64,000 bases of DNA from Tubulanus polymorphus (Eukaryota > Nemertea > Palaeonemertea > Tubulaniformes > Tubulanidae): NCBI RefSeq assembly GCF_964204645.1, contig NC_134029.1, positions 2,985,001-3,049,000 of the forward strand. Reading direction: 5' to 3'. Positions within the stretch are counted from its first letter, which is position 1. Each line of letters starts with the position of its first letter. Positions 37,401 through 60,050 of this stretch are shown one piece after another. The notes beneath the pieces were generated by a model. That model was given only the letters and a program-made list of their open reading frames with translations, did not search any database and was not told the DNA's origin. Position numbers and translations under genes: made by a program.

Positions 37401-38599
37401 ATATATTCTGTAGTATAAGTGTGTGTCGGTGTAATGATTAGGCCCGGATCAGGTTACTGACTAGGAAAACCCACATTGAAAAATTAAGAACCTTGTTCGA
37501 CTATGATTTCTTTTATTAATATTTCATGAAATAAGTTGAGTGATAATATAGACCTTTGAAGAGTAAGACTTTTTACACTAATTGCAATGATTAAGATTTT
37601 ACATAAGGCTTTATCCATGTTTGAAGGATTGTTCAATAACAGTTACATAAGCTAGATAGAGGAAATTTAAATATTCAGGCCCAGCTAGTAAGCCTGTCTT
37701 TAAGGAGCGCAATTGGATTGATTAAGATAGGATCCATTGCGCGTTGATAAAGAATCAATAGATATTGCGGCATTCTAAATTAGATTATTTAAAAACCGCA
37801 AGTTTAGGCGTTCAATTGGTCCTAACATTCATTAGAAACATCAGATCAAAATGATACAGCGTTTCGATACTCGTCATAAAGTACATTGGCTGCATCAATT
37901 TGGTGAATATTATATGGCAAGCACAATTTTTCTAAATTTTTAAATGTTAAAGGAAAGTTTAAGGTGCTGGACCAATAGTTATCTACACATTTGTTTGGGT
38001 CAAAAATATGCCTCCACAAGGTGAATGATATGGTAAAAATTAAGAACATTCCAAATCAAGACACATGACAGTCATTTTTGGGGGAAGATGTAGACTTTTC
38101 CCACCATAATTCGAGGATTTAATTCCCAAACTTTCATTTTTCATTGCGCCTGCATGACCTATAGTCAAGTAGTTTTCACAGCTAGAATCACCAGCCACAG
38201 ACGGTTTGTTCAAAAAACCCAGGTTGGTTTATAATATAATCTATGAAATTTGATATGTAATTTGCTTGCTTATTCTTGATATAAATGAACTACCCTGATA
38301 TTTGGTTCGGTACAGAGGCACGCAAAGTAGGTTCATGGCTGGAGGAAAGTAACCTTCATGTCAATGAGATTCACGACAAACATTTTCAGCAGTTTGCAGT
38401 TCTGAGGGAATTTTTGCAAACCGTAGGATCAAAAGTCTGGATATTTATCGGTCAACATGGTAAATAGGCTGAAAATTAAATAGTTCATATTCAAGACAGC
38501 GATGACTGACACCATTTTTGTGAGTGAATAAATGCAGGCTTATTTCGCGTTTGAAGTTTTAGTGGTTTACCACATTGCATCTTAAAACTTTATACATAT
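34442..38599. other. Gene-poor region after the four-TM gene
   Basis: The start is the 3' UTR of the four-TM gene, with an (AT)n run near 34748-34772. A minus-strand open frame at 34857-35186 has ordinary-looking composition but no motif I can name. A hairpin lies at 35332-35378. From 35.4 to 38.6 kb I see only AT-rich sequence and short open frames (for example 37846-38049 on the minus strand and 38285-38467 on the plus strand) with no supported function. Confidence 0.4.
35332..35378. repeat. GC-rich hairpin, 22-bp perfect arms and 3-nt loop
   Basis: The arms 35332-35353 and 35357-35378 are exact complements (GATTTTAGCGGGCTACCGGC... and its mirror) around TTC. The arms are GC-rich in AT-rich surroundings, and a polypyrimidine tract (CTTTCCTCTTTCC...) follows directly. 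Confidence 0.95.
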
Positions 38600-38695
38600 A
38601 GTAAAGTCCGCTGCACAAGGCACCGAAAAAAAGTTTTTTCCTCGTGAAAAACGTTTTCGATGTGTCTTGTTATGCCGTGTGCAGCGGACTTAACT
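38600..38695. mobile_element. Small MITE with 23-bp terminal inverted repeats
   Basis: AGTAAAGTCCGCTGCACAAG at the left end matches the reverse complement of the right end (AGTTAAGTCCGCTGCACACG) with few mismatches. The 96-bp element is nearly a complete foldback. No superfamily could be assigned. Confidence 0.75.
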
Positions 38696-38739
38696 AATCT
38701 TGTTTTATATTTTAATAACTTAACGTACCGGGTGTTTTT

Positions 38740-39330
38740 TGTCATTTATATAAAAAAGCGTGTTCATGATTATGGATAGTTGGGTTTGTCAAAATAAATT
38801 TAAAAAGATAAGTTCTAGTTATTTGTGGTTAAAAGTTGGTTTGATTTCAAGATATGTTACGGCTTTTGAAAAAGTTAAGCAGTCTGAATTCCAATGTTGA
38901 ATAAATTGGTCGGTTAGTCGTAGTTTAATAGATTCTTAAACATATTGAATATTCGGATATTTTGGTGTGCCCCAACATCGACCATTCCACGTTCTTCCAG
39001 TATACCTTTTATACAAGCTAATCATTTAAGATTGAAAACTTTTGAAATACTGAAGTCTATGGTATATCTTGCTAGATAAATTTTCCCATTTTTAAAAACA
39101 AGGTTAGTTCACAGATTTTACGGTTTTTTTTATACACATATATTTAACTCTCCATATATCATGTATTTGGTGTCGCATTATTAAGACGTATATACTTTCA
39201 AAACTTAGGTGAACCATTCTAAGATTTTCAGGTTTTCATATCCCCATATTTCACACGAATACAAAAGGATCGGTTTAACCATAGAACCACACAGAAACTT
39301 GCTCACTTGAGTAAAAGACTAGCTCAAGGA
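38740..39330 (-). pseudogene. Decayed LINE reverse transcriptase C-terminal fragment
   Basis: Minus-strand translation gives KPILLYSCEIWGYENL near 39230-39285, typical of the end of non-LTR retrotransposon RT domains. Further on, a frame near 38840-38930 reads DQFIQHWNSD followed by KAVTYLEIKP, which resembles the downstream LINE C-terminal region. Stops and frameshifts separate the pieces, so it is a dead fragment. Confidence 0.6.
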
Positions 39331-39536
39331 AACATTTTTAGGACCTTGTTCTGGACGTTTTCGTTATTTCTGTGGGATTCGCTTTAAATTATGCATGGCT
39401 ACATCCCTGTAGCATGTGAATTAAGTTCCAGAGTAAATTTCCAGACGGCAGATGAAGGCAATGACATAAGTTAGGGGACCCTAAATACTGAAACAAAAAA
39501 TCCAATCAAAACGTCTACTAAGTTTATTCTATAATA

Positions 39537-39717
39537 CAGTGGAACTTCGTAACAGCGAGGTTCATGGGACCAGAAAATATGTTCGTTATTACCGATAGTT
39601 CGTTTCGTTATATCCAGTATGAAATTAATAGTTATCTTTCTTACTTGGGACAAAATTCTATATTTGTTATATCCGATGAGTCGTTGTTTTCGAGTTTGCT
39701 ATAACGAGGTTCCACTG
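39537..39717. mobile_element. Tc1/mariner-type MITE
   Basis: The 181-bp element begins CAGTGGAACTTCGT and ends in the complement of CAGTGGAACCTCGTTATAGC, flanked by TA dinucleotides (39535-39536 and 39718-39719). Ends of this sequence with a TA target site are typical of mariner-derived MITEs. Confidence 0.88.
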
Positions 39718-40156
39718 TAATGCACGAATAACTGACGAGGTAAACTTAGCAAAAGAGTTCAATATAAGTTCCACAAAGCTAAACAGTTCAAATATCAAAA
39801 CGATACAATTTATTATAAAAAAAACAGAATTATCAGTTTTCCACTTAAAGCATTATTAAGGAATGAAAACTAATACAGCGTATCAAAAACATATATAAAA
39901 AAAACGCTAATTAATACAATCTTCGATTATCTTCTGTACAATATTTCTCTCATGCACATCGGTTTTCGAGAATTAATTGATGAAATCGTATACCAGTAGC
40001 TACAGCTTGTTGGACGTCATTAGTCTGAACAGGAGGCATGGAAGAAGGCATGTGAGACCATCTATCTTGGTTTAGTAATGCAAGATAAAAATTAATATTG
40101 CATTAATATATAGCATACTGACCCACTACCTGACTCAGCTAAATAACTGCAAGTAT

Positions 40157-43100
40157 TCAAAATAATATTGAAAGAGTTTTTTGATACTTTGGATGTTCGT
40201 AGTAATCGAGAATGGGTGCGCAGCGGTAAATCAAGTATTCGTCTAATGGCCGTCCTCCATGCCTTAAAAATGTGTCATACATACATACAAGTAGACATCA
40301 GTCCATTGGTAATACATTTATGAATCCCTATAAGTAATCTGTTTAAACTACTAATAATATATATATGTACATGTACATGAATTTAGGCCACAGGAGGACC
40401 ATCTCAGGTCAGTCCAATTCTGATGAGCCCTTGAGCGATACAAATGTAATAAAAAATATCAAGATAATTGATTAAAGCGTTTTCAAAATCTCCCTTCAAA
40501 ACTTCAAAAGTGTGTAAGTGCTAAGTTCAGCAATGCCATATTCCCTATATGGACGGATGGATGAATGCGAAGATAGACAACGGATGAACAGTGAGCACAA
40601 TAATCTGGTGGGACTTAAGTCTCAAGTGGGCTAAAAAGGAAATATCCTGATGCGGACGTAATTTCTATCGACAAAATATTACAACCATTCACAGAGGCTC
40701 TTCGACTTTGACATTCCGTCAACGATATTGGATAACACTTAACGACGTATGTCAGCAGAATTGCTGAGAATCTACAAATCAACTTTTAAGTGGCCTTATA
40801 TTGTAATTTTCAATCTTAAAATTTGCCAATCTGTTGTACCGCTCAGCTGTATTTTTTTCCTAACGTCGCAGCACAGACTTCATGAGCTTGGTTATCACTG
40901 ATACCAAAATATCTTGCCACCAGGGATCTAATTATGTGTATCCTTATTCTTGCACGTACTGATGAAGAACTGAAAGATGAGAGAAATCAAATAAGAAAAA
41001 ACTTCATATCTATCTATCCATATATGTATAAATTTGAATCGTAGATCTGTACCTAACAAACACATTTGAGTGAAGACAAAAATTTAAATACATTGAACTG
41101 GTATACCAGTCATACAGGGATTCAGGAATTGAAATTTTAATACAATCATTTACAAATGCAATGAAATACCTACCTTAATCTCTTTTGAAGAATTTTGGAT
41201 ACTAAATGAATTGGTGCCATGAATGGAACTTCCATTTGTGAGTAAGAATACACCATTCTGAAAATGATAGTTTAACGGCTTTAAAGCAAATATTTGTACT
41301 GTTGACCCAACTGTATTTTGAAGGTTAAATTATTGGAGGGTTGTACAAACAAACCGTGAGATATAATGTTTTATTCAATGATGTTTTAATATTTGAACTT
41401 GAATACCGAGTGCAACATGTTCTTTCAGTAGTACGAAACATTGCTTTACCAAAATAATCTGTGAGAGTGTTCAAATATTTATGTGATTTGAGTAAACTTA
41501 CATTGGATGTACTGTATATTTTACAAAAAGCGACTCAGCAATCAGTTGAACGACACAGCTGACATTATTTTCGACAACACCAGCACCATACGCATTATCA
41601 GACAAAATATTTTCCTCCTGCAAGCTGAATGCATAGAGCAATTATCTTTATCGTTAAACAATTGCAAATAACAAGAGAAACTAAACTTATGGCACAAATG
41701 GGATGTCATAATGATATGAATTTCTCTAGAGTCCATCAGATGATGATTACATGAACTTGGCACCTCCATTTTCTGCCTTAAGCTTTAGATCAGAAATTCA
41801 TAGAAATTATGGATGTTGATTATTAATTCATCCATAATATGGGTCGCTACTATGGTCAAGATTCAGATCTGTATTAAATCCCTAGATGTACATGAGCTGA
41901 TGCTTTTTTTCAAAAATTAGCCAAATCGATCAAATTTTCAGAATCTCCTGTCATGAAACTTTGTTCTTACATGCTTGGTAGACTAAATATCTTCTCAATA
42001 TCATATCTGAGCTCAAGGAGAACCTGAAAGTATAATAGAGAGTTGGAGTGGTGTACATTTGAAAGTCCTATAGACATATTAACGGGACACCATGCCACTG
42101 CTCAATGGGATCAAAATCTATGAAAGACTACAGCAACACCGTCTGCTGACTAGTTGAAACCGATATGTTTAATGATCTTAACTAATATTCAATAATAGAA
42201 AGTAGGAATAGAAGATCTATGCTATACTGAAGTTGGCTATAGATTAGCCATCTGAGGGCTCAAGACATATATACTCACTTTCCCATTGCTGCGATACAAA
42301 TATGACAAAGGAATCATTCTTGAATCGTCTACATCGTTTTCATCATCAATGAGTTTATTCAGCTTTTGCGAACAAATCATACATACAATGCTATCAGACA
42401 TTCTAAATTTAATGAATAAATACATAACATGTAAGCATCAAAGAAACTGAATTTACAAAATGTAATGTTAACTATGAACTTAAGATTAATAACCTCGAGC
42501 TACTTTTGGAAAAACAGATAATACACGCAGAAGTAATGGACAATCTGACCTCTTCCTTGACCTAGAAGAAACAAAAGCAAAGAGACCAAATTAGACATTT
42601 CTGTAGAATAACTACTGGCAGGATCAATTTGACAATTATAGGTTGATGCTATAAATGATGGACAGTTTGTAGTAGTACGTATATATGATTTTACCTGATT
42701 ATAAGCACTGAGCTTTGTTTCGACGATATGTATGGGACATGTGTATGTTCTAATCAAATGACAATCTTTTTCTTCCAGACCGACACATCCAGGATGAATG
42801 AGCCATTTACAACTTACATTCAAACATTCCATAACATGATAGTTGCTATAAAATAAGAAGAGAGTTAGTTTTTGAATCTATGGAGTGAATAGTTTTCAAT
42901 TAAGAATTATTGATATCTTCAATGTATCATATTCAGTAACGGTATACTGGTTTGAATTTCATACAATAATGAAGGCAAAAAGAAATTATAAAATTAAATC
43001 CTTTGATTCAGAGTTTAAGTGGTTTTGTTTCAGGTAAAAAAGAAATAACATATCTTGCAATGTAATATAATGCAGTTACGTATTTTGTATTGGTCTTGAC

Positions 43101-46100
43101 TGGAAGTACAACCATAATAAGTCACATATAAGCTATGTGGGGGGGGAGATTGTAAGGTGAAGCACATGTGAGAATGAATAAAGGGCTAATATGCGCCATG
43201 AGTGGTGAAGACCTCTGCAGATCCAAACACAACATTCTTCAAGGGTGGTTCATTCACATAGACATGTAGATTAAATGATATCATTAGGGCGTTTTTAATA
43301 TACAATTTCAACAATCAAGAACCTTTGACATTTTATACCAACTCCTAGCTTTCTGATGCATAATTTCAGTGAAATTTTTGGCTCAGTCATGTAAATGTTG
43401 ACAATAAAAAGATGTGCTACATCTTGAAGTCAATCAAGATCAAAATTACTGCAAAGATGACAAAACGTTCCAACTTCACCACAAGAGTCATCATTATTTT
43501 TTCGGTAATCATTTTCCCAAAAAGCTAGTTATCCATTGTTACCATTCTTTCATGTTCATGCTGCTGATCACTTACTCATTTTTCTGTGCATTACAAAAGC
43601 ACAATAATGGACGTTTGTTGTCTTCATCCGTTAAATTACGCAGTATATCGAAATTTTGCCTTCTTTTCTGGACATTTGTACGCTTTAACTTCAGACAAAT
43701 GGGGTTAAATCATTAATAAAGCATACCATACCACTATCAATTTCTATTTTCACAACTCATGCGCATATGGCGCTTTATTAGATTTTTCACATACCTGGGA
43801 GACCGTTCGATAAGTTCTTCTTCTAAAAGTGGACAAAATTTTCAACAAAAGAAATAAAATAATGTATTGATTTTCAAAGTCATTGATATAGTGCTGTGTA
43901 AGGATAACCTTGTTAGGAGATACTTAGCAATGCTGACCGATTTCCAAGGTCCAGAGTCTAATGATCTAGTTTTCTCATTAATGCTATAGCGAAACTCAAT
44001 CAATGCTAGAATTCGTTTATATTTTCCCTTCAAAGAATTCACCCAAATTACTTAGTGATAAAACTTAATATCATTTTTTAAGTCAATGTACAACACATCT
44101 GGTTTTAGGTATCAATCCTGCATACGTATGTTGAAGCATGAATGTAAACCATCTAGTTTGAAGAGTTTGTTGAGTTATTGATTTTCTATAAATTTGATTA
44201 AATTTACTACAATTGGTATCCACTGCACAATTAATACTTACTCTTTACAAATTTTTCTTTTTTCAATATGTCCATCATCATTGTTCTGTTTCTTATTTTT
44301 CACTGGTACTAGGCTAAAAGAAAAATACACAATACACTGGTAAAAAATGAAATGGAAATATATGTGTAAATTAGTTTCAAAGTTGTTGATACATTTATGG
44401 CATGCATCAACTTACGATTCATTCATATTTAACTCATCAAGCTGATACTGCATAAAAAAGAAAGAATCAAACGAAGATCATGTTCAAATGCAAATCATCT
44501 CAAAATACTCCTTTGATAATAATAATAATGATGATTCACATTAATATGTTACAGTGCAAAAAGCATTCAGCAAAACTTTGATAGGAACAGCAAAAGTAAT
44601 ATGTCTATAATGACTAAATGTATTAAATTCAATTCCTATTATTAATTTGACACAAGAATGAATGATAAAATTGATTGTTAAGCGCCATATTTCAAACATT
44701 CTTTCATATGGATCTGAAGTGTAGAACACATACACTAATAAAAACAGAAACAATTAAAAACTTTACCTCATTGACGATTTGATCAACACAATGTCTGATC
44801 TCTTCGGGTACAGTTAAGTCATCCCTAAAATGGTGAAAAATCATCAATTTAACTATCAACTTTAAATGTTCCATGATTAGGATAAATAAAGTAAGATATT
44901 TTCCTGGCCAAAAACTTACAGCATTTCAAAACTTGTTTCCGATGAATCCGAATCATGAACCGCAAGGGACTGACACTGTAGGCAAATGAAAATGAACCAG
45001 GGGTCCAGTGACACCATACCCACTTAGTGAAATGCATTGCAACCCGACAATTTCAATATTCAATGCCCCTGGTAAATATGTATAGAAACCAATGTCCGCG
45101 AAACTCACCACAAACATAGAATAAGTCATGGGCTACAATTTTACGTTTTCTGATTGTGTTTTACAAAATGTGTAAAGGTACTAATATTATAGGGAACATT
45201 ATCAAGTATATTATAGGGATTTGAAATGGTTGCATTAAAAAAATCTTCAAATATAATGCTAATATCTCACATTTAATCATCAACATATTTCAAGTTCTAT
45301 GTACAGGATATTTGTATTTAGTTACAGATCACATCAAAGACTTTTCTGTTTGTCTTATTAACTGGTTAACAAACGTTTGCTTATTATACACTAGTGTCTC
45401 AAACTTATCATAAACTTATTCAATAATAATCTGTAGGTAGCTTTCATAAACACCATTGACTATATTAGTACGTTATATGTTTGTAAAATATAACCAATTA
45501 CTTACGTTTAACTGTTCTGTATTTTTGTTCATAACATGATTATTTCTAAAAATCACAGATTGATATCAAATACATGTAATTCTTCTTTAGATGATTGAAA
45601 GCGAAAATCACATCGAATGACCAATAAGACATACTATATAAAATATGAATAAGATGGAGAATGCAATGTAAACTTACTCGCATGACTTTCCTGAGTGGCA
45701 ACTAGCTGTACAAATTACACCCCTCTTCTTACACAGACATCTTAAAGTCGAGCAATTTGCTTTGCAGTGGCATCGGCTAGCTGGTTTCAAAGAGTGTGAC
45801 ATTGCCATCGCAGCTGTTCTTATCGGCAATTTGGGAACTGATCCCCACCCAGCGACAGGAATATCAAATTCCCCAACAAACCGTTGTAGCACATCTGCTC
45901 GCAAGGCAACATCTAAGACTCCGTACTTGGTTCTAAAAATGAGGATTAACAGAATAAAGAATAGAGCTGTTAAGACTTTGCTTTACGATTTATGAAATTA
46001 TCTGACAAACCGTATTATATAAAAGTTTCCATTCTTAAACTTTTTCACTTGGACTACCACACCAGGGAGTCTACGTAGATCTATTTTGTGGCGGTCTTGC

Positions 46101-49100
46101 TCAGGAATTTTCACCGTTACAAAATCCCCAACTTTGAATATTAGTTGTTCTTTGTATCCCCTTTTCAACATCCTTTTTGCGCCTTTTAAGGAGGCAAGGT
46201 TAGCAGCCATCCTAATTTTTTGGTGAGCTTCCTTAGTTGCTAGCTCATTAGCAACCTTAACTCTCTTTATTGGCAGCTCACTAAAATCAAATCCCTAGAA
46301 TGGAAGTGGTGCATTGGTTAGCCAGCTTAAAATAAGGCCAAATGTAGTAAGTAGAGTTTAGGTTATAGCAAAGTGACAAGTTTTGTGCATTGTTAAAAAG
46401 GCTTACTTGCGAAGTGGTTGAGGCATTTGGTTCCATCTGAAAAAAGTTGAGTGATATACAGATATGAAAATTGGTAAACACTGCACTTGCAATAAATGTC
46501 GATTTTCTGACACTTGAAAAATTGTCAATTTTTTAAATATACATCTCTTAGAAATGCCACAAAGTTTACATTAATGAAATACTGTAAGTATCCCTTTATA
46601 AAATGCAAGTTGGCAGTTATCTTTTCTCAGGACAAGATTTCAATGAGCCTTATTCTGCAGGAGATGAGATAGACATATTTGTATTTAAAATTAAATCGAA
46701 TATATACACAAGATAATCAATCAAGCATGTACACACCGTAATATCTTCATCACTCTGAATTGTTATGGCCTATGAAAAAGAATATGGATTACTGATACTT
46801 GGTAAGTATTATAAAAAAAACATGCATTAAGATAATATCTACAGCCTGGCTCTGTTTACAAGATGTTGATTAATTTTGAAAGGTATTTTGACTTTTGTGA
46901 TACTACTGTATTTGAAACTTAATTTCTTACTACACCCTACAGGGCCATAGGAACGAATTGTGGCCCATAATGACGGCGTAGCAGGCACAAAGCACTAAAT
47001 GGTCATAAAATTTTGAAAAATTATATCATTTAGGTACATTCTGAGTACTTCCTGGTTGAAATTAGGAATGATATAAGCTCACAGTTTCACCATTTCTGCC
47101 ACTAGGTACTATGGAGACCTACCCTAGGCATGTAGGAAGTCATAGGCAAGAGTCAGAAAATGGGGGGGGGGCATGGCTCCCCGGTTCCTACAGCCCTGCC
47201 CTAAAATAGATTTTAGTGAGTATTAGTACATACTTCTGCATTGCCCTCCTCTTCGTCATTATGTTCATTTGACTGAAATCAAATACAATTTCTTATAAGG
47301 ACTGAATAATGATATAAATACCATTTGCTGAAGTAACTACAAATTTTACCTGAAGTGCAATATTTGGGGGTTTTTGCCCATACACACATTCATAGGGGGT
47401 ACATTTTATTCGTGTGGAATACGTAGTGTTGATCATATCTAAAGAAGCAAAAAACATTGAGCATATAGGGGAAGCATATTATGAATTAATCAAGATATCG
47501 TGTTCAATTTTACTTACACATAATTCGTGGTAAATAATGATGCCATGGAAATTCTCCTTTTCCAGTGAAAGACGCTTTGAATGAGGCAATTTTATCAGCC
47601 ACGATACGATGACCCCGTTCTACTAAGCCCTGGCTCTGGGGATGACGAGGTCTACCATGGACAATTTTACAGCTGGAGGGCCATTCAGACAGAAGATCAC
47701 CCAGTTCCCGGTCAGAAAATTCACCTCCATTATCACATTGAAGAATTTTGGGTAGCCCAGTAAAACTGAATAGGATCCTGAGAGCATCTTTCACATCAGT
47801 CGCAAATTTTCCCTTCAAGGGCCACAGAAAATGAAATTTGGAGGCATGGTCAATAGCATGCAATATGAAGCGATAACCTTCTGTTTCTTGACGTTGCATA
47901 TCAATCAAGTCAACCTGAAATGAATATACATGTATGAATTAACGATAATAGTACTCAGACCTTAAATAAAAGTTATGTCTTACCTGAATTCTTTCGAATA
48001 CATTTTGGCTAATGATCGGAATGACTGGGGCTCTGCCAGTTTGCGATGATTTCAGTGTGCACACTTTGCATTTTTTCAAGGTATTCCTTACATGAATTCG
48101 AATGACACCGAAGTAGTTTTCTTGAACCTGAAAGTTGATCTTTTGAATAAGTGATTAAAGATATGATTAACTAAAACCTCAGGGAATAATTTTACCTTTT
48201 TAAATGTAGCATTCTCTCCACCATGCCCAATAGCCTCGTGACAGGATAATATGATTTGATCAAAATCTTCCAAAGGGATAACTCTGAGTTTCCTTGAAAC
48301 CTGAAACAACCCATTTGGAGCAAATGAATAACTTCTGTACATACTGCAATAAAATGATATTTTCCATGTAAGATACGTACATCACTTTTGCATGGTGCAA
48401 CTACATTCTTATCACCGTTTTCCTCCTCTTTTAAAGTAAAACCTTTGGTTTTGACCTGCAAAATAAGACGAAGCATCACTTCATAAATCAGTTCTATTAT
48501 GAGAAAATTGTAGTGATACAAGTCGTCAAGCATTCACAACGAGAACATTTACCTGATGTCGGAATTTGGCTAAGCTTTGGCTGTTGGGAAAATAATTCTT
48601 AACATCTGGATGCATTGGGTTTTCAAGAAACTGTTTGACAACATCCAGATATTCTTTATCCATAACCGAGCTATTTTTGGCTAAAAAATGAAACACCTCT
48701 ATTCACATTCATACATAGGCCTAATGCCTTATGAAACCAATCATTTTAATTTGTGGCCTAGCAGTAAGGAAAAAGATTCATTCCCACCAGGAAATCATTT
48801 CTGATTTTATAAAACAAAGGTATTTTATAAAACAAAGGTGAGAATGTATCTGAATAACCCATGCTATCTTAGCTTACCTCTTTTTTTCACATCAGATCTT
48901 TTCACATCATCTGTAATTCTGTTATAAAATGAATGAAAATTTATTGTAGCGAATAAATTGGCCAGCTTTTAGTCTCAAGTATCTTACGTAATAAAATGAA
49001 CAATTTTGTATCCTAAAACAAACTGAACCATAAAGCGAATCTTAGGTTTAACCACCAGCATTTGTGGGCATTGAATAATATTTTGTACCAATTGTGCTCT

Positions 49101-49736
49101 TTTTTTAATCAATAAAGTTTTCTTGGTTAAACTAGTTGAACTGACAACTTCGAAAAATATTTGACAGCCAAAATTTCAATATTCAACACCCCCTGATGAA
49201 CAAATACAGCAATAGATGAATGACACTGACTTTTAAATGCCATAGTGCCAATCAATTGAGCATATATACCATAATATTCCATGGTTAACATATAGCAGAA
49301 GCCATCGCCTTCTAACTCAACATAACCATACCATATCATGGGCTACCAATGTGCAATTGATTGGGTTAACAAAATATGCATACGTACCAATATAAAGGGA
49401 AAATATTAAATTTAATATCAAACTATCCGTGGTGGGGAGAGAACAAAAGACCACAATTCCGAGCAAGGAGATGTATCCTACGATAATGCAGTCAATTATT
49501 AAACATTAAGACTATCAAGACCTGTTGAAATTTTTCCTGAAAAACCTTTTAGAATATAATAAGTTTCATAGATAGACTTACTTAGATGATGCTTTCTTAG
49601 CAGAGTCATGTGCTTTCTCTGAATGATCTATAGGATTTGTATCTGAAAATCTATCATTAACATGGAATGAAATTCTAGTTTTCTAATGAGCATGTCTCAG
49701 TGGAAACGTCATTTCTCAAAACATACTTATCATCAT
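40157..49736 (-). CDS. Multi-exon DDE integrase-derived gene (KRBA2/Ginger-like) with CXC- and PHD-like segments
   Basis: I join 27 exons in phase, about 910 residues, from a possible start ATGATGATA at 49736 (exon end 49727). The next exons are 49582-49642, 48878-48918, 48553-48680, 48381-48455, 48196-48300, 47984-48127, 47518-47914 and 47350-47438, ending at 40157-40262. Order: charged N-terminus; H2C2 zinc finger (HEAIGH ... CKVCTLKS); integrase core with all three acidic residues (VDLID, QCDNGGEF, GLVERGH) and the late motif TPYECVYGQKPPN; a beta-rich segment (VGDFVTVKIPEQD, 46011-46294); a Cys-rich CXC-like motif (CHCKANCSTLRCLC, 45678-45932); linkers; and a PHD-like half (MECLNVSCKWLIHPGCVGL, 42695-42845). 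The C-terminus, 40157-41624, is unrecognised. Related vertebrate genes are domesticated integrases. An active transposon, a domesticated gene or a fusion with the upstream USP gene all remain possible. Confidence 0.82.
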
Positions 49737-51530
49737 CTGGCATGTGATCACATGACACAGAAGCTTTAGTGCGACTGTTTGAGGCCTATCAAATATAAAA
49801 TGTAGAGGGTTGACAAAACTATAAACTACATTCAAATATGGATGCACACAAGTGAGTTCAATATGGATGCACACAAGCGAGTGTAAGAGGAAAAAAATCA
49901 AGGGCTATAATCTTTAAAAACTAGGTGCGCAATCAGAGTACGTCTGGAACCAGTCCAGTCATTCAACCAAATGCAGCAATGAACATCGATGAAACTCCAT
50001 GAACTAGAGGACTGCAGATAAAAGCATCGGTAAATGACAACAATGCTTAGGCCAACACATTTTCAGGGATTTTTCACATGCTCTTTCTTCTTTCTCACGA
50101 AAAGGTTCAGACTCTAAAAAAAGAGCAATGTCCTTAGGGGGGTGCACGTGCCCTCTGCGCAAACCCCTGGATCAGCCGCTGACATATCTATATGTACGCA
50201 CATATAGTGATTGTCCCTATGGTGCCAGTGAAGCCAATGTAGCATGTCCAAAATATCAACGAAATCCTATGCGCCAGAATCTAAAGGCTTCTTCGTCAGG
50301 GCGTGGCTATCTACAAGGGTCCGCCATCGTCAAACAGTCCCGGGGAGTGGTAGTGAAAAGGGAAAATGTCATCCTCTGAAGGTTGATGAATGAATAATGG
50401 CCGACTCCAGGAATAAAAGGTCTAAAAGGGGTAAACTAGTGTCCGAGATGAGTGCGAAATCTTTCCCAGGTGACTACATTATCTAAATGAAGTCACTTGA
50501 CCAATCAGGACGAGTGTCTGCCAGGTACTCAATCAAGTCAGGGTCCTTGACAAGATATGAGATCAGTCATCCAAACACCGGCTCCTACTTCTCTGGTCCT
50601 CAGAGGTGTAGTGTCATTCCAAATGCCTCCAGCACATCACTACTGCAACCAGCCTCTTTGACTTGCCCTCACTTACTATGGTCTCACACATAAAATAAGC
50701 AAATCAAAAGAGACTTAGTCTTGAAAGATAAACAATATGAATAATGAGAGAAATCCCACAATAGATTCAGCCAAAAATGTTAAGTTCTTGAGTAAAATTC
50801 TATATACATCGGTATAATCTGATGATGGCTAATAGTATTTAGCATATATGTTGCTCAAAATATATACCACTTTGCTATAGAACTTTTCATTTTGGGCTGA
50901 TTCTATTCTGGGATTTCTCTCGTTAGGCATTGGCTTCCTCCTCTCCTGACAGTGAAAACGAAAAGAATTATAAACTTAACATATATCGATTATTATTTCA
51001 TAGTTAACTTGTTCATTTTACAATTTTACAAATAAAATATGCGAATAAAAAAGAATAAAATTCATAAATGAGTAGAGAACTATACATTCATCTTAGTTTA
51101 ATAATCCTATGTACATATTGCACATGACTGGATACAAGTAGGCCTAGCCTACTGAAATTTAGCATGATACACTACATCCTCGCACTAATAAAGTAGAGTA
51201 AAATGGGCCGCCAAGTTCCACAAAAAGTTTTAACTCTTAAATCGATTTAATTTCTTCATTAATTCAGTTTATCTTTTTTTGATCAATTTTGGCTTTAATC
51301 CTTTTTGTGAAACTGGGCCCCAGATGGATGGAATAATTAGAAATATACGTACCCGGTAATAACATTCTAATCCTTAGCCATCACATACAATTTCATAGCG
51401 ATACAATAATCTAAAGGTGTGAAAATGATCAGACTCCATTGCAAGATTCAAGATTCAAACAAGTCACACTGATCTCCACATGAAACCGACCATTTTCCGA
51501 CACCCAAAATACAACATCTAAACCTACAAC
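49737..51530. other. Spacer between integrase-like gene and USP gene
   Basis: It contains a TIR element at 50743-50924. A plus-strand frame at 50128-50379 has no recognisable domain. Directly upstream of the integrase start, the exon-like stretch 49728-49785 has an acceptor (TTTGATAG at its upstream edge), so a further 5' exon may exist. Confidence 0.4.
50743..50924. mobile_element. TIR element (MITE), 182 bp
   Basis: Positions 50746-50779 and 50888-50921 are about 90% complementary over 34 bp (GAGAGAAATCCCA(C/G)AATAG...). No target-site duplication was recognised with confidence. Confidence 0.75.
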
Positions 51531-54500
51531 TCATAAACACATACAGGGGCGGCTGGGCGACGTGTAAAATGTTTCACATACCTGAGGGTCGGGTTGGTGT
51601 GAATTATCTGCTGTAGTCCTTGTCTGAAAAATAATATTTAGACTCATTACAAATATATACTGCATCCTAAATTCCAAGTAATGACACATTTTTAGAAAAA
51701 TCAACGTGTAAAATGTTTCACATACCTGAGGATCGGGTTGGTGTGAATTATGTGCCGTAGTCCTTGTCTGAAAAATAATATTTAGACTCATTACAAATAT
51801 ATACTGCATCCTAAATTCCAAGTAATGACACATTTTTAGAAAAATCAACGTGTAAAATGTTTCACATACCTGAGGATCGGGTTGGTGTGAATTATGTGCC
51901 GTAGTCCTTGTCTGAAAAATAATATTTAGACTCATTACAAATATATACTGCATCCTAAATTCCAAGTAATGACACATTTTTAGAAAAATCAACGTGTAAA
52001 ATGTTTCACATACCTGAGGATCGGGTTGGTGTGAATTATCTGCCGTTGTCCTTGTCTGAAAAATAATATTTAGACTCATTAAAAATATATACTGCATCCT
52101 AAATTCCAAGTAATGACACATTTTTAGAAAAATCAACGTGTAAAATGTTTCACATACCTGAGGATCGGGTTGGTGTGAATTATCTGCCGTTGTCCTTGTC
52201 TGAAAAATAATATTTAGACTCATTAAAAATATATATTACATCCTAAATCCTAATTACCGTTGTATCGTGCATTACTGGCGAGTTGAACCCTTAACCTTCT
52301 GGCAGCAAGATCATTTGCATGTTGATGAAATTAAACTTCCGATTTTTGAAAGAGGGGGTACACTGGGTGGGGTCATTTTTGGGGGCCCAGCGCGAAAAGT
52401 GAAATCACTTCCAGGTTCGGATTCACGAGTATAGGCAGTTGCCATGTCTTAAGAGGCTCAACGCGCTGCGAGGCGCTTGTGACATAAAAACAATCTTTTA
52501 ATGCGAGATAGGCCGGGCTATTGACTACAGTTGCCTACGGCAGATTCCCAGTGTGTCGACTCAGTAGCCTGCAGCAAGTTAAGGGTTAACTACATAAAGT
52601 TGAATATTATATGACAAAATAAGAAAGAACACATACTGGTACTTTTATATAAAATAGCATGTAAGCATTCTGGGATAGGACCCAATCCTTATTGGCTCTC
52701 AATACCTAAAATAAAGATTAAGTTACGTTATATTGTGCAAATGAACGGAACTAACTTCTCTGTCCTCATTTGATATTATGACAAAAATATACAGGATGTA
52801 TGCTTGTTTTTCATATAGAGCTCCTGTGGTTCCAAAGGGTTTGTCCGCAGCGATTATTTTATGATAATAAAACTTTTGAGTCACTTTTGCCTGTAATTGC
52901 ACATTTTGCATTGGTTTTTGTTATATAATGTGACAGAATGGGCATGAACCAGATTAAAGAATTAGGTGCTGCGTCAGAATGGTGATTCGCCTTAGTTATC
53001 TGACTCATGTTCAAGACATAGCTGCCAGGTGTCTGATGAATAATCAATAAATGATAAAATATTCCTGGTTGCAAATGATCAATGGATTTACAGTACCTTA
53101 CTGTCATTTGTTTCAAACCATTTACCATCAATATCGCAAACAAAAGATATATAATGTCCTCCTTCCAAAGAAGAGCCTTGATGAACCACAACACTGCAAA
53201 GTTTAAAATTCTGAAAAATATGTGACAGTGTTATTTATGTGCAGTATTCCTAAAAAACTAGAATATCTTCAGTAAATGAGCATACCTCGTTGTGGAAGCT
53301 AAGAACTTCATCAAATCTCACAAAATCATTTCTTTTTTCCAATGTCTTACTGAATCTTAAAAGGACAAGACAGTCTATTAGTTATAACTCCACCAATCAA
53401 TTCTAGAGATACTGTTCATACCGTATGCCATGCGTAAAATACCATTCTACAGGGTGCCTCAAAAAATGTGTTTTCAGTTACACAAAAGCAGTTTAAGCAA
53501 ATTGACAGATTAAGTATTTACCTGTTAATTTGAATAGCTAAACATTCAGGAGCCTTCAAAGGTTTAGTAGATTTCCTTGCAACCTTTAATTTGCAACTTC
53601 AATGAAAAACGATGGAAATGAAATCATAGCTAAAAGATAATACCTATAAATATGGAATCAGTACTTATGATCACTACATGAAATAAACATAACAAACTCA
53701 CTGGGAACACTCATAGTCATCCAGTTCCTCACTACAAAAATATGAATTAAGTAACGAGACAAGGGTTGTGACTCCTTTTCCTTTATCCTTCTGAAATACA
53801 AAGAAAATCTCAAATGTCATATAGGAACTATTTATAGGAAACATATAGAAATATTCAGCGGTTTAAGGGACCAAAAACACAGCTACACACCCCAAGTGAT
53901 AGACTGAGGTTTGTGAATCCATCAGTTTGTGTTGATTCAGTAGAACAGGATCTACAGATGACTGAAAGAGAAAGTCATAAAATATTCAAACAGGGCTTAC
54001 TGATGTGAAAATTAAGTGTAGTAAAAATGAATGAATCATTGCTTGAAAAGCTTTGCTACTTAAAATACCTTTTGTTTGAAGAGAACCATGGAAAAACTTA
54101 ACAATCTGTTTAAAATCAGAACTGAAAAAATAAACACACATTATATTCATCATCTATCTAGCCTCAATTTTTTGATAAGTATAAACATAATTGCATTCGT
54201 TCATTCGCTCGTTGCTTCATTCATTTTGTTTACCTTGAATTTTCATCTTCAATTTTACTCATCCAACGAATGAAGAACTCATGGGCATCACACTGACGTC
54301 TTGAGTAGAGCCCTATATCTAAGATAAAATGGGGTGAAAATCAGTTTGGTTCAGTAAAGGAAAGTTGAAGAAAGAAGTGAGAAAGAAGCAAAACCACATT
54401 TTTTTCCAGTTCACCACGGTTGTGTATGAACACCAAACCATCCAGCTCTTCATTATAGAACAGATAGGCAAGGGTCTCATTCCTCGAGACATCACCTACA

Positions 54501-57500
54501 TATTTTGATCATAGTAGTGTATAACATACATGAATAGCATAAAAGTCATGAAGCGAAGCAACATATATAAAACAGAAAACAGATGAAATAGGAGTGAAAT
54601 ATTCAATTTGCACTGGTCATTGTGGTCACCTCAAAGTCTTCAGATACAGAAGCAAGTGGCAATGAGGCTCTAGTCATTTAAGACCCTACTCAAAATTAGG
54701 GGATACCTATGGAATTTCCAAGAAAATAACGCCTATGTGACTGTCATTGGTTTGGCAAGAAATCATACTATAATTAAATATCATATCAAAAGTGTTTGAT
54801 ACAGGCTATTCCTAGTATAAGCCCATCTGATCACTTTTCCTGAGATAGGCACATAAAATGTTTTCCTAAATCGCTGCAATAAGGTGAAAAAAAGACTTTT
54901 GGTGCAACCACACAACTAGGACACCACGCCTACTGGCGAAATGCTTGACAATCTGAAAATAATCAAATACCACATTATTCCGTTATTCGCCTGGTGATCA
55001 TACTCAGAAACGAATTATGTACCTTGAAACTCACCCAGCACGAATTTCAACACATTATAATGGCAAACCATAATCACTACCATTAGGAAGCTACAGGTCT
55101 CAGAATTCAGGGCACAAGTGACCTTTTTTTGTCAAAATATCAAGGAACTTCATTGAAGCATATTCAAGATTTCCCAGCCAGCCATCTGGAATTTGATCAG
55201 GCCAGTTTTTGGCTCCAGATGCATCTAAAGTAGCTATTAACCTAATATCAAAACAAACCATTGAAGCATCAATTACAGTTCAATTTTCCACAAATTACTG
55301 GGGCCTGTCTACAAACAATGAATGAAAAGTGAACAAATTAGGCCCGCTAGGATTTAAGTCCCAAGTGGGTTAAAAAGCATTTGCATTGTAATGAGACATA
55401 ATCATGTGGATTACTTAATACTTAATACCCTGAGATGAAGCCTATATGTGTAGAGTATTTACATAGACAATGTGAAGCAAAGAAAATTGATGAAAAACAA
55501 ATAGGAAGATTATATAATATACCAACCATTTTGCCATTATTCTGTCAGGAAAAGGAAATTGAAATATAAACATTAGGTCAAAAACACTTTAATTCTCAAA
55601 TTACACAACTAATCTAGTTTATGAATTAGAGATATTTTATTTCAAAGGACTAAAAATTGCAGTATAATGAGAAATTATGATCAAAGTAAATACTTACTAG
55701 GCAAAAGACATTTCATGGCACTAGGATTCACTACATGACTAATATTTGCTGATGTACTTCGCAGAACTAGACACAGATCCTCCAGTGTCTGGGTGAAATT
55801 ATCCTGCTTTACCTCTAAATCAAAGATGTTATGTGTCAATTCTATGAACAATAGGAATGCTTGGCTGTGAGACGATTAGACAAATTAACTATCATCCCAC
55901 CCTTAAGGCTGGCTTGAGGCTGATTAGCGGGATATGAGATCCTCCCAGTTGCTTCCCTGCTTTTGTCCAGTTCCGATTACTGGCAACTGCACTGGATCAC
56001 ATGGTCATGAGCATTTTGAGGATAGATTTAAATTATTTTGAATTGCGAAATATATTTCCAGTTGAAAAGCAGTTTCGTTAAGACTTTTATCTTTCTGATT
56101 CTGTTTTGAATACAATGTGTAAGCGACATCATATAAAGATGGCCGCTCACTACGTAATTCTACCAATTTCGTTTCTAGATCTTTAGTCCAGTCAACTGCA
56201 ATGCTGGACGTTTGGTTTGCGTTTGAAACTACTTGAAATTACCGGTAAATATTTGTGACATGATACAAATGACACTAATGTAGCAATCAAAATTTGTACT
56301 ATGATCATTCGGTCTCTAATTGGCTGGTATTCCTGCGCTCAGTTCCATCGCGTCAAGTCAGGAGAGGGAGGTTGTCATACACATAGGATAACATATATAC
56401 CGGTACCCATCCTTTATATGGGCTAAGCATAAAGTCAAATTATGGCTCCTCACCGAAATTTGATGATGATGATTAGGCCTATATATCCAATCATAGAACT
56501 CATCATGAGCTACAATTTTGCAAAGTGGTGACAATTTTGCAATTGTGGTAAAAATATGCCTAGGTAACTTGACTAAAATTGAACCGATATGCATTAGGCT
56601 ATTCCTCAGGCATTGATATTCACAGGGCTCTGCCCCAAATGACATCCAAGTCAAGTCACGGGGCCGTATATTTTGGTGCAGCTGAAAAGTAGCGATACTT
56701 AAAATAATATATATAGATGATGATAAATATTTCAGTTAGATATATCATAATAGCATAGGCTATATGGTATCTATAGTTAGTCTGAATACCGGTGGTCGTT
56801 TCACGAACGCCAGTTAACTTCGAATTCGAAGGTGATAATCAAAAATTCTTCGAATTAGGCATAGATCATTTGATGATTAAATCTGTTTCACTAACGCAAA
56901 TTAGCGAAAAATTAACCAATTCAAATTATCTCAGATAATTCTGAATTAGTTGCCCATAATGCATTAGTCCTATAACATGAACAAGGTTTCATTCATAAAT
57001 ATCGTAGGATTTTTTGGTTGTACAATGAAATTGTATAATCGATCGTTCCGTATTTTCTTTGCAATTCTTTCTCCAATGAGATTTTCAATAGGCCCTAAAT
57101 CTAAAAATGTGTAGGTGATATATGATAAATATCTTAATTTGCATTTTTGAAATGGGCATCGAAAATTAACCTAAAAATTTTTATTCGAATTGGGCAACTA
57201 ACCCAAATTAGAGGCTTAATCCCTGTATGTAAAACCGGGCCCAGGGAGTTAGGGTTAGTTTAAGGGTCCGTTTTACACTTAGAGAGATGAAAGGGTTAGG
57301 GTAAGGTTGAGATACGATACGTTGAATGCTATATGAATTGAAAACTTACAGCCAGATTGCAAGAACGTATTTTATATTTATATTTAGAGGATATATACAC
57401 TGGTCCGGGTTCGAATCCCGCTCTATTTTCTCTAAATCTGTTCAAATTTTCTTGAATTTTCAAAGTTTTGCATTTGCGCAGCATCAATTAGGCAATCAAA

Positions 57501-58678
57501 ACAAGTCATTGGAAAAATGACATAGTCTAATAATAAGAAAGGCAGCCAATATTTTGCCAATGCGGTATTATTCCTCTTAACACTATTTTGCCAATGGCGC
57601 GTTCTGAATGACTAATTGCGGCTGCATAGGAAAGTTTGGAGAACAGAGTTAGCCTAGACAAAATAAGAGCATAGACTAGAGTGGGATTCGAACCCGGACC
57701 ACCAGATTACTGGCCTAACGTCTTTCCACTAGACTAGACCACTGGGCTCACTGACAACTACCCGTAATTTTTCACTACAGCCTCACCTTTACCAAAACTC
57801 TATGGGTAATAACGGACACTTAAGTGGCTAAACCTCACCCTAACCGGCACGATTTTATTGTTACATTTCATAGCCATTGGGCAATGGCAAAATAGCATAT
57901 CGCTGTGGCTACTCGTACGGACCCGTACGGATTACTCTGGAGGCTATTCATACGGAACTAGGATCTGTTTCACCAAGAATCTTAGTGTCTGATGTAGGCC
58001 TACCACAGGATTGGTTACACTAGGATCGTAGAGCGACGGAGATCACTGGTGGAGACAACCACTGCCAGTGCTGGGTGAAGGATCTGTACGCTAATAACTG
58101 TCGCTGATTGGCCGATAAACGCCCGCCATTCAAGGAAAGTGTGGAGAATATAGTTAGAGAACAATAGAGTGGATCAAGCGAGACTCGAACCTGGGCCAGT
58201 AAATAACTAGCACAGCATCATACCACTAGACCACTGAGCTCACTGACAGTCAGCCGAATGTTTTGACTAGCCTGACCGTACGAATAATTCCACAGTAATC
58301 CGTACGGGTGCGTACGAATAGCCTACGGAATTATTCATACGGGCGCGTACGAATAGCCTACGGAATTATTCGTACGTGTCTGTACGAATAGCCACTTGGT
58401 TTACTAAAATAATGCTGCATTATTGGCAAAATATCCACTTCCATTCTTTAAAGCCTTCAAAATGGGCTTTATATATACTTACGACATCTATTGAAAAGCT
58501 CCATTGAATTCTGGCTTTCTGCGGACTTTTTAGAGAACAGTTTGAAATGTTCTGCTACACACTTAACCGATTGAATAACGCTGTTCATATAACAAGACTG
58601 CCCATAATTAGCAAGACCACGAGTGTATTTTGAAGGCCTCTTAGAATATGCCCAAGCAGTAGAACCTAAGAACATCAT
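51531..58678 (-). CDS. USP-family ubiquitin-specific protease with repeat-exon tail
   Basis: Ten exons join in phase to 313 residues: 58483-58678, 55698-55814, 54234-54318, 54069-54121, 53891-53961, 53702-53790, 53522-53596, 53286-53355, 53097-53210 and 52637-52705. They contain a whole USP domain. The Cys box is RGLANYGQSCYMNSVIQSV (usual NTC is QSC, catalytic Cys kept). Next come the QQD-like box (RRQCDAHEFF), two CxxC pairs of the zinc ribbon (ICRSC; YECSHC), the His box (EGGHYISFVCDIDGKWFETN, followed by D) and the terminal AYMLFY. All catalytic positions are present, so cleavage of ubiquitin conjugates is likely. The frame continues into the five-copy exon array; the stop used here (51531) follows the last copy. 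Start at 58678 is the first ATG; an acceptor-like TTTTTTTCAG just upstream allows an earlier exon. The paralogue cannot be named. Confidence 0.88.
51582..52199 (-). repeat. Five-copy tandem array of a 42-nt exon (144-bp unit)
   Basis: Five copies of a 144-bp unit lie head to tail. Each contains the same 42-nt in-frame exon with acceptor (TTTTTCAG) and donor (GTATGTG), at 52158-52199, 52014-52055, 51870-51911, 51726-51767 and 51582-51623. The exon encodes TRTTADNSHQPDPQ in copies 1, 2 and 5 (transcript order) and TRTTAHNSHQPDPQ in copies 3 and 4. Each exon is symmetric (phase 0-0), so any number of copies keeps the frame. The units also read through in one open frame. The array follows the last USP-domain exon (52637-52705, phase 0). 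Reading past the last copy reaches a stop at 51531-51533. Confidence 0.93.
52288..52585. mobile_element. piggyBac-like MITE in USP intron
   Basis: The left end CCCTTAACCTTCTGGCAGCA pairs with the right end (reverse complement CCCTTAACTTGCTGCAGG). TTAA follows the right end at 52586-52589, while the left flank is TTGAA, so one target copy may be mutated. The interior is GC-richer than its surroundings. Confidence 0.6.
56005..56228 (-). other. Orphan MADF/Myb-SANT-like exon inside a USP intron
   Basis: The open stretch reads SSIAVDWTKDLETK followed by LVELRSERPSLYDVAYTLY, resembling MADF or Myb/SANT-like DNA-binding domains (W near the start, ERPSLYD core). It starts after an acceptor-like TTTCAAGTAG and runs to a TGA at 56005 without a clear donor. 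Its entry phase fits the upstream USP exon, so an alternative terminal exon is formally possible, but a gene fragment or an independent exon is as likely. Confidence 0.4.
57680..57755 (-). repeat. tRNA-derived SINE-like head
   Basis: The minus strand has an A-box-like TAGTCTAGTGG and a B box GGTTCGAATCC at tRNA-like spacing, starting near GGCCCAGTGG. The arms do not fold into a credible functional tRNA. A second copy lies at 58171-58246 and an isolated B box at about 57403-57419 (plus strand). Confidence 0.6.
57905..58395. mobile_element. Non-autonomous TIR element with subterminal repeats and internal tRNA-like head
   Basis: The outer ends are GTGGCTACTCGTACGGACCC on the left and the complement of GTGGCTATTCGTAC on the right (58382-58395). 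The left ~50 bp also pairs with 58273-58323. Two 35-bp units (TACGGAATTATTC(A/G)TACG...) repeat at 58324-58358 and 58359-58393. Inside, 58171-58246 (minus strand) carries A and B boxes of a tRNA-derived SINE (TGGTCTAGTGG and GGTTCGAGTCT). Confidence 0.7.
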
Positions 58679-60050
58679 ATTGTATGTTGAAAACTGAAAA
58701 AAACTTAAATCACTGAGTCGAAACTTGTCGAAAAAGTTATTCCAACTTGGCGCAAGTATCCGTGGCGCCTCCTACTATTGCCAACGTTTCAGTATAGGAT
58801 GTTGTTTGCATTTTGATTCTTACTCTGGCATGCACTTCCGCCGATAATTCTTACTTGGCACGATATTCCCACTTGGCGCATAACACAGGTGGCGCGGAAT
58901 TGAAGAGGCAATCAGTCTTTAATAGTAGCATGCCACAGTAGGAACATTATTCTTGATCGCTAGGTGCTGCCTCCAGGAATTGCATCGACGGTGAATATGG
59001 AACTAATACGACCTGCACGGCGGACTCGAATTAGGAAATTCTGCAATTCTCATAATTAGCAGAACAAATTCATCAAACATTCACACAATATCCATCATTA
59101 TCACCTGGACTTGAATCAAACCTATGGAGCATTCGCTTTTAATTTGCGCCGAGTCAGGTTAAAGGCATTATGAACTGTGTTCACCTGCGGGGTCCTGGAC
59201 ACTTTAAACCGAGAAACGACCCCATTCACAACCAGATGATAAGACCCCTGTGAAAATGGCTCCCGGTTCCCGATTCAAAACCATTTTGAATCGGGAGCCG
59301 AATCGGGAACCGGGAACCGGTAGCCAGCTTCACACGGGTGATGATAATGTGTATGATGAAGCTGTTTTATATCATATATTTCACCTTGGAATAATCAGTC
59401 TGATTATACTCCGATTTCACAACGAACGCTACCATTTCCAATAAAACGTACGGACCGTCAAATTTTGGGATTGGCTGGATATATACTGACTGAGACATCT
59501 ACTTCGGGATTCTTGCGACTTAAGTGAATATTCAGTCAAGGTGAATTATAACATTGGTTTTTATTGGAAACTAATAAACTACTACAAATACGTGAATCAA
59601 TAAGATTAAATGATATTTTTGCCATGCGCATTCATTGGATGATATTGCAAGATCTTGGAAAGCAAAGACGCGCCCTGAAGAAGCGCGTTTGAACTTTGTT
59701 TGCATGGAAAATTGCGCTTTATAAATTCTATTCTATTTATCATCATTATTATGAAACAAGTGCACATTTCTATATTCATTCTTCATGCGTTGGTTTCATT
59801 TTATTCAATGCTTTCGAAACAACATTTTGAAGAATGGAATAAGTATTTAGAATGAAGTGACTATATACGGTTATAGATATTTATAGCTATAGTCAACAGG
59901 TTATTCTTTGCTATTTCTAATCTACGAGCAATTATCTCAACGATTTATGCTCGTAATTCTAATTCATTTCGAAAAATCTTTTTCTGAGAAGAGCTTATGT
60001 TATGGACATCTTCATCGTTACCGATACCTGTAGTTTTGATTCTGTTCTTC
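58679..60050. other. Spacer between USP and the repeat-protein gene
   Basis: No coding exon is supported. It contains a short foldback element at 59244-59339 and, at the right end, the presumed 3' UTR of the repeat-protein gene. Confidence 0.45.
59244..59339. mobile_element. Foldback MITE, 96 bp
   Basis: The left arm ACCCCTGTGAAAATGGCTCC and the reverse complement of the right arm (ACCCGTGTGAAGCTGGCTAC) match, followed by runs of GGTTCCCGATTC on both arms. The element is almost entirely one hairpin and is GC-rich compared with its surroundings. Confidence 0.8.

Follow-up and report, generated by a model that had tools for sequence, protein, structure and literature searches.

A tandemly duplicated micro-exon in the putative USP-integrase transposase gene of a Ginger-like transposon from Tubulanus polymorphus

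The window, by which we mean the whole stretch of 64,000 nucleotides analysed here, contains a tandem array of five 42-nt exons. With a probability of roughly 80%, we read this array as a duplicated micro-exon in the transposase gene of a young, 23.6-kb Ginger-like transposon, whose product would be a single protein made of a USP deubiquitinase, a linker and an integrase. The array is most likely a linker within this transposase rather than the tail of a host gene, because 37 exons join in one frame that passes from the USP through the array into the integrase. From the sequence, we infer that all array units are spliced in and that USP and integrase share one transcript.

Results

The exon array

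The 144-bp unit is present in 4.8 copies with a 98% match (TRF, 51560-52248), and we accept the earlier view that the units are young. On the minus strand, the array resolves into five such units, each with one 42-nt exon in phase 0 that is preceded by ...tttttcag, followed by gtatgtg and read as TRTTA(D/H)NSHQPDPQ, in a frame continuing from upstream (Table 1). When scored with a splice-site matrix built from the remaining exons of this gene, the donor of the array (CAG/GTATGT) is among the top 6 of 1325 GT and the acceptor among the top 11 of 1257 AG in the whole element. The sequence-only reading, which had proposed an array of symmetric exons, each with its own acceptor and donor, is thereby borne out, and its coordinates fit exactly. 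The D/H changes that it took for the only differences between copies are present, though not alone, as silent third positions vary between the copies as well.

It was also correct that the frame stays open if a unit is left unspliced (an ORF of 234 aa). About 5% of shuffled introns as long as the array intron are open as well, and this chance applies to one unit: openness in all five counts as one event because the unit was copied. The idea that intron retention might extend the repeat found no support, the splice sites of the array being the strongest in the gene.

Table 1. Coordinates of the features discussed (positions in the window unless a contig or piece is named).
Feature	Position	Strand	Evidence or reading
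Complete transposon of 23,635 bp, with its gene on the minus strand	35251..58885	-	boundaries common to dispersed copies; ends and flanks
Target site duplication CAGG, left	35247..35250	.	flank comparison
Target site duplication CAGG, right	58886..58889	.	flank comparison
USP/UCH deubiquitinase domain, 10 exons	52756..58678	-	Pfam UCH 9.9e-33, profile 1-252/254; exon table
Array exon 1	52158..52199	-	TRTTADNSHQPDPQ
Array exon 2	52014..52055	-	TRTTADNSHQPDPQ
Array exon 3	51870..51911	-	TRTTAHNSHQPDPQ
Array exon 4	51726..51767	-	TRTTAHNSHQPDPQ
Array exon 5	51582..51623	-	TRTTADNSHQPDPQ
Three small linker exons, leading to integrase	48878..49785	-	in-frame chain
Linker exon b	49727-49785	-	in-frame chain
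Linker exon c	49582-49650	-	in-frame chain
Linker exon d	48878-48918	-	in-frame chain
Integrase, H2C2 zinc-binding domain and DDE core (rve)	47350..48680	-	Pfam rve 2.3e-9, Integrase_H2C2 5.1e-7
Three tiny phase-0 exons (39, 33, 30 nt), acidic or Ser/Thr-rich	46407..47272	-	exon table
Integrase C-terminal segment and Cys-rich (CXC-like) segment, exons o, p	45678..46294	-	exon table; Cys-rich tentative, Pfam TCR E=0.6
PHD-like zinc finger, exons w, x	42695..43688	-	Pfam PHD_NSD E=0.0037, below cut-off
C-terminal exons and tentative stop near 40843	40843..42561	-	exon chain; frame of last exons tentative
Sister-family locus, C31	L068 1-5701		UCH and integrase matches
Sister-family locus, C5 (12.46 Mb)	C5:12458446-12468552		UCH and integrase matches
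Sister-family locus, C3	C3:14447416-14464355		UCH and integrase matches

Dispersed copies and element ends

We searched for the array in the source genome (267.8 Mb) and fetched the matching loci, which lie at several further sites on several contigs. Four other large copies (C1, C4, C7 and C11) are about 99% identical to the window, over up to the entire 35251-58885. The element has ends of the TGTTR...AACA type (TGTTG...TAACA); its end sequences, TGTTGCGTGCCG and, inverted, TGTTATGCGCCA, form an imperfect terminal inverted repeat. Perfect 4-bp target duplications flank three of the copies: CAGG in the window, CCAC in C1 and AATA in C4, where the terminal base of the element is altered (G for A). 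The C7 copy is missing about 108 bp at the left end and the C11 copy everything left of 45977. More copies or fragments are found on C8, C77, C1 (a second one, at 93%, here C1b) and C6. With its defined ends, dispersed sites and target duplications, the element is a cut-and-paste DNA transposon of the integrase type.

The sequence-only reading had placed the array in a deubiquitinase gene. The deubiquitinase stands, as a UCH domain is present, but its gene is not one of the host: this domain is part of a repeated 23.6-kb transposon with dispersed copies. A host deubiquitinase with an evolving C-terminal repeat tail would account for the complete USP domain and its catalytic residues, but not for the element ends, for nearly identical copies spread over several contigs or for an integrase that shares the frame; the dispersed copies and target duplications rule it out, and we give it next to no weight.

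Three smaller features were noted within the element. About 310 bp at 35758-36068 of the window copy are missing there in C1, C4 and C7; a short dispersed repeat at 52328-52590 has dozens of genome matches at 73-91%; and the stretch between the array and the next exon holds an inverted repeat that looks like a MITE or small hairpin (50742-50925).

Gene structure and domain order

We joined exons by eye on the minus strand, using canonical GT-AG sites. The 37 exons form one open frame with matching phases and no stop, from MMFLG at 58678 to the end of the PHD-like finger at 42695, and the exon after them, y, is open as well. The domain order is USP, array, H2C2/DDE integrase, Cys-rich segment and PHD-like finger, with linker exons b, c and d leading from the array to the integrase. 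That the array forms the tail of the gene, as first proposed, does not agree with this frame, which runs on into the integrase, nor with the sister family described below.

Both catalytic boxes of the USP are intact (Cys, GQSCYMNS; His, GGHYISF), and the predicted protease, having these boxes and a UCH domain, qualifies as a member of peptidase C19. Its closest relative by sequence among USPs of solved structure is USP30 (PDB sequences). The integrase has the catalytic spacing D-D-37-E, and its C-terminal part, together with the Cys-rich segment, may resemble KRBA2-like proteins. Exon d and its splice sites are conserved in an older relative. Small in-phase exons appear to be a habit of the transposase gene, occurring in the integrase part too.

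Two properties of the chain count against our reading: the final exons ab to ad have no clean join, and three splice sites are weak in the matrix (the acceptors of e2 and e7 and the donor of e9). One could divide the chain into two genes, a USP gene that ends behind its last exon and a gene for the integrase with its start near 48660; the array would then be non-coding, in the 5' UTR of the integrase gene or in an intron. We consider this unlikely. Although readthrough of the last USP exon reaches a stop after 10 residues (near 52723) and integrase exon f offers a methionine, the phases match over the array and three more exons, and the single AATAAA between USP and integrase, at 48945, is far from the USP. 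An in-frame stop in one array copy would also favour two genes; in the sister family, however, the two parts are likewise joined by a phase-0 micro-exon with strong splice sites.

Within a single gene, the array might instead be read in an alternative frame (QGLQQIIHTNPTLR), if the last USP exon used a donor further upstream and exon c another acceptor. This chain is likewise open and avoids the stop in C7, but we regard it as highly improbable. We prefer TRTTADNSHQPDPQ because the other frame would leave the USP fold without its final strand (AYILYIF), has the weaker donor (4.2 as opposed to 7.3 bits) and conflicts with the sister family, whose USP ends in phase 0; in addition, the two changes in the diverged C1b exon are silent only in the frame of TRTTADNSHQPDPQ.

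Unit number between copies

The array has five units in the window, four each in C1, C11 and C7, and three in C4. As these copies are otherwise about 99% identical, unit number varies between copies of one element, and the in-frame variation in steps of 14 residues that had been suggested from the window occurs within one genome. The last unit and its own downstream flank are common to all five copies. A variant unit, carrying LE in place of PQ, occupies the penultimate position in C1, C11, C7 and C4; it is absent from the window copy, whose units 3 and 4 are identical. The diverged copy C1b has one recognisable unit, with the exon broken after 32-34 nt. One unit of the C7 copy contains a stop in the favoured frame, consistent with decay of that copy.

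This pattern would fit a history in which units were gained, lost and locally copied, be it before or after the element inserted, with unequal exchange or slippage as the probable route. Any unit number keeps the frame because the exon is 42 nt long and in phase 0; the repeated part of the linker would be free to drift between about 42 and 70 residues, with the enzyme unharmed.

Selection

Between the 99% copies, coding exons have changed in a way that looks neutral (14 silent, 29 replacement and 5 stop, counted as distinct changes). Such a pattern is what one expects of inserted transposon copies in decay, and we count it against our reading. For C1b, 4 of 387 sites differ in the USP exons, compared to 35 of 1117 in introns (p=0.025). 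An older relative, L067, has 26 silent, 21 replacement and 1 stop change in its integrase exons (d, f, h, i and j), a silent excess over the 24% expected (p=9e-6). At the sequence level, these deeper comparisons show constraint, with past selection on the integrase exons. Neither USP nor array was found in the older integrase relatives L066 and L067; the lack of an upstream USP in L067, which is a fragment, counts against our reading as well.

A sister family

A UCH profile search of the genome, read together with the integrase search, yielded a second, distant family in three copies (C31, C5 and C3), with UCH matches followed by integrase matches on the same strand. We read it in detail from one 5.7-kb piece, L068 (C31), in which the USP His exon is followed by the final exon of the USP (VSSMRAPIFQGGEPYVCFYEKKIHS), by a micro-exon of 27 nt (VNTSEMPQT) and by an integrase exon (INTSRGPS...), all in phase 0 and with good splice sites. 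The integrases of this family and of the window element are about 29% identical over 180 residues. Because the two families share this order and the phase-0 micro-exon in between, a USP-linker-integrase protein is the best reading for both.

On balance, we favour the broader view of a giant integrase-type transposon lineage with a USP-first transposase and at least two distant families in one genome, in which a repeat-variable micro-exon linker would act as an in-frame, splice-encoded length dial.

A further array, on C8 (L069 1-2401, C8:990600-993000, on to about 996100), repeats in tandem about every 1026 bp and has, by matches, about six copies. We rejected it as a spliced exon array; it comprises rearranged sister-family pieces and other DNA.

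Comparison with known systems

In the excerpts of Bao et al. 2010 (PMC2836005) used here, Ginger1 elements are described as having a Gypsy-like integrase with H2C2 and DDE, TGTNR ends, 4-bp target duplications and introns. Members are 2.6-7 kb long, with 0-4 introns and CCGG/CCGT insertion sites. C-terminally, their transposases have a protease domain acting on ubiquitin or SUMO (OTU or Ulp1), and one family also has a PHD finger. By these excerpts, our element is like Ginger1 in its introns, 4-bp duplications, ubiquitin-type protease and PHD(-like) finger, and it has the TGTNR termini (TGTTG left, TGTTA right), H2C2 finger and DDE core (Pfam H2C2 5e-7, rve 2e-9) of the Ginger superfamily. It differs in its length of 23.6 kb, its roughly 40 exons, its USP at the N-terminus and its targets, which at the three sites seen are CAGG, CCAC and AATA and in no case CCGG or CCGT. 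Pfam searches of the C-terminal pieces found neither OTU nor Ulp1, the UCH/USP being N-terminal instead. By eye, exon o (GDFV...LPGVVVQV) is without a clear GPY/F, and YPYY is likewise unclear.

Ginger2/Tdd, according to the same excerpts (PMC2836005), has TGTNR ends, H2C2 and DDE and 4-bp target duplications, all as in our element, and is without GPY/F. That group prefers RTATAY targets, which none of the three element sites match, and a protease is not among the features that these excerpts report for it. Because the Ginger1 target, the C-terminal OTU/Ulp1 and the Ginger2 target are all missing, the element is, on its sequence features, classed as Ginger-like and filed in neither Ginger1 nor Ginger2. 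Polinton/Maverick transposons (6-bp duplication, PolB, capsid genes) were ruled out by the 4-bp duplications and the absence of such genes in the scanned ORFs.

Deubiquitinase domains are also found in Helitrons, as OTU or VTD, where they have been suggested to save the transposase or its partners from degradation (PMC9741609); those transposons are rolling-circle elements without an integrase, and their protease families are unrelated to the one here. A Trichomonas vaginalis protein with Transposase_11 and Peptidase C19, mentioned in the excerpts of PMC2836005, similarly joins a USP-family protease to a transposase, albeit of another family and in another organism. Tandem exon duplications of host genes, often spliced in a mutually exclusive manner, resemble the array in having head-to-tail exons, each with its own splice sites (PMC9013439), whereas here the exons are near-identical, lie within a transposon and vary in number between copies.

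We found no relatives of the integrase in viral contigs and only distant matches (32-41%) in prokaryote genomes. The literature searched, which lay chiefly outside subscription journals and Repbase, contained no USP-integrase transposon.

Discussion

The predicted product would be one long protein, with the USP at the N-terminus, followed by the linker, the H2C2/DDE integrase, the Cys-rich segment and the PHD-like finger. Part of the linker would consist of n copies of the 14-residue hydrophilic exon, a repeat that probably serves as a flexible, neutral spacer between deubiquitinase and integrase. By analogy with the deubiquitinases of other transposons, the USP probably shields the transposase, or partners of it in the host, from being removed through ubiquitin; alternatively, it may act on DNA-repair ubiquitin signals, as suggested for the Ginger1 protease in the excerpts of PMC2836005.

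Domains of deubiquitinases and SUMO proteases turn up repeatedly in transposons that are not related to each other, OTU and Ulp1 in Ginger1, OTU and VTD in Helitrons. If our reading is true, a USP at the front of the integrase in two families this distant would be another independent recruitment, and the fusion would suggest that transposition generally requires the removal of ubiquitin. The array itself would represent a tandem exon expanding within a transposon. Its 3-, 4- and 5-unit states are preserved side by side in one genome, and exon gain can therefore be studied without comparing species.

Outside the transposon, the minus strand of the window holds a separate gene at 59981-61856 with about 12 copies of a 47-residue repeat (KSKLQASANDEDVQDALALLRNKFRHKQQ...). 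Its 601-aa repeat ORF (60051-61856) was rejected as part of the transposase gene, since it lies outside the element, and upstream, near 62095, lies an exon whose translation resembles a signal peptide (MKVPLLIVVVTAYTVVAG).
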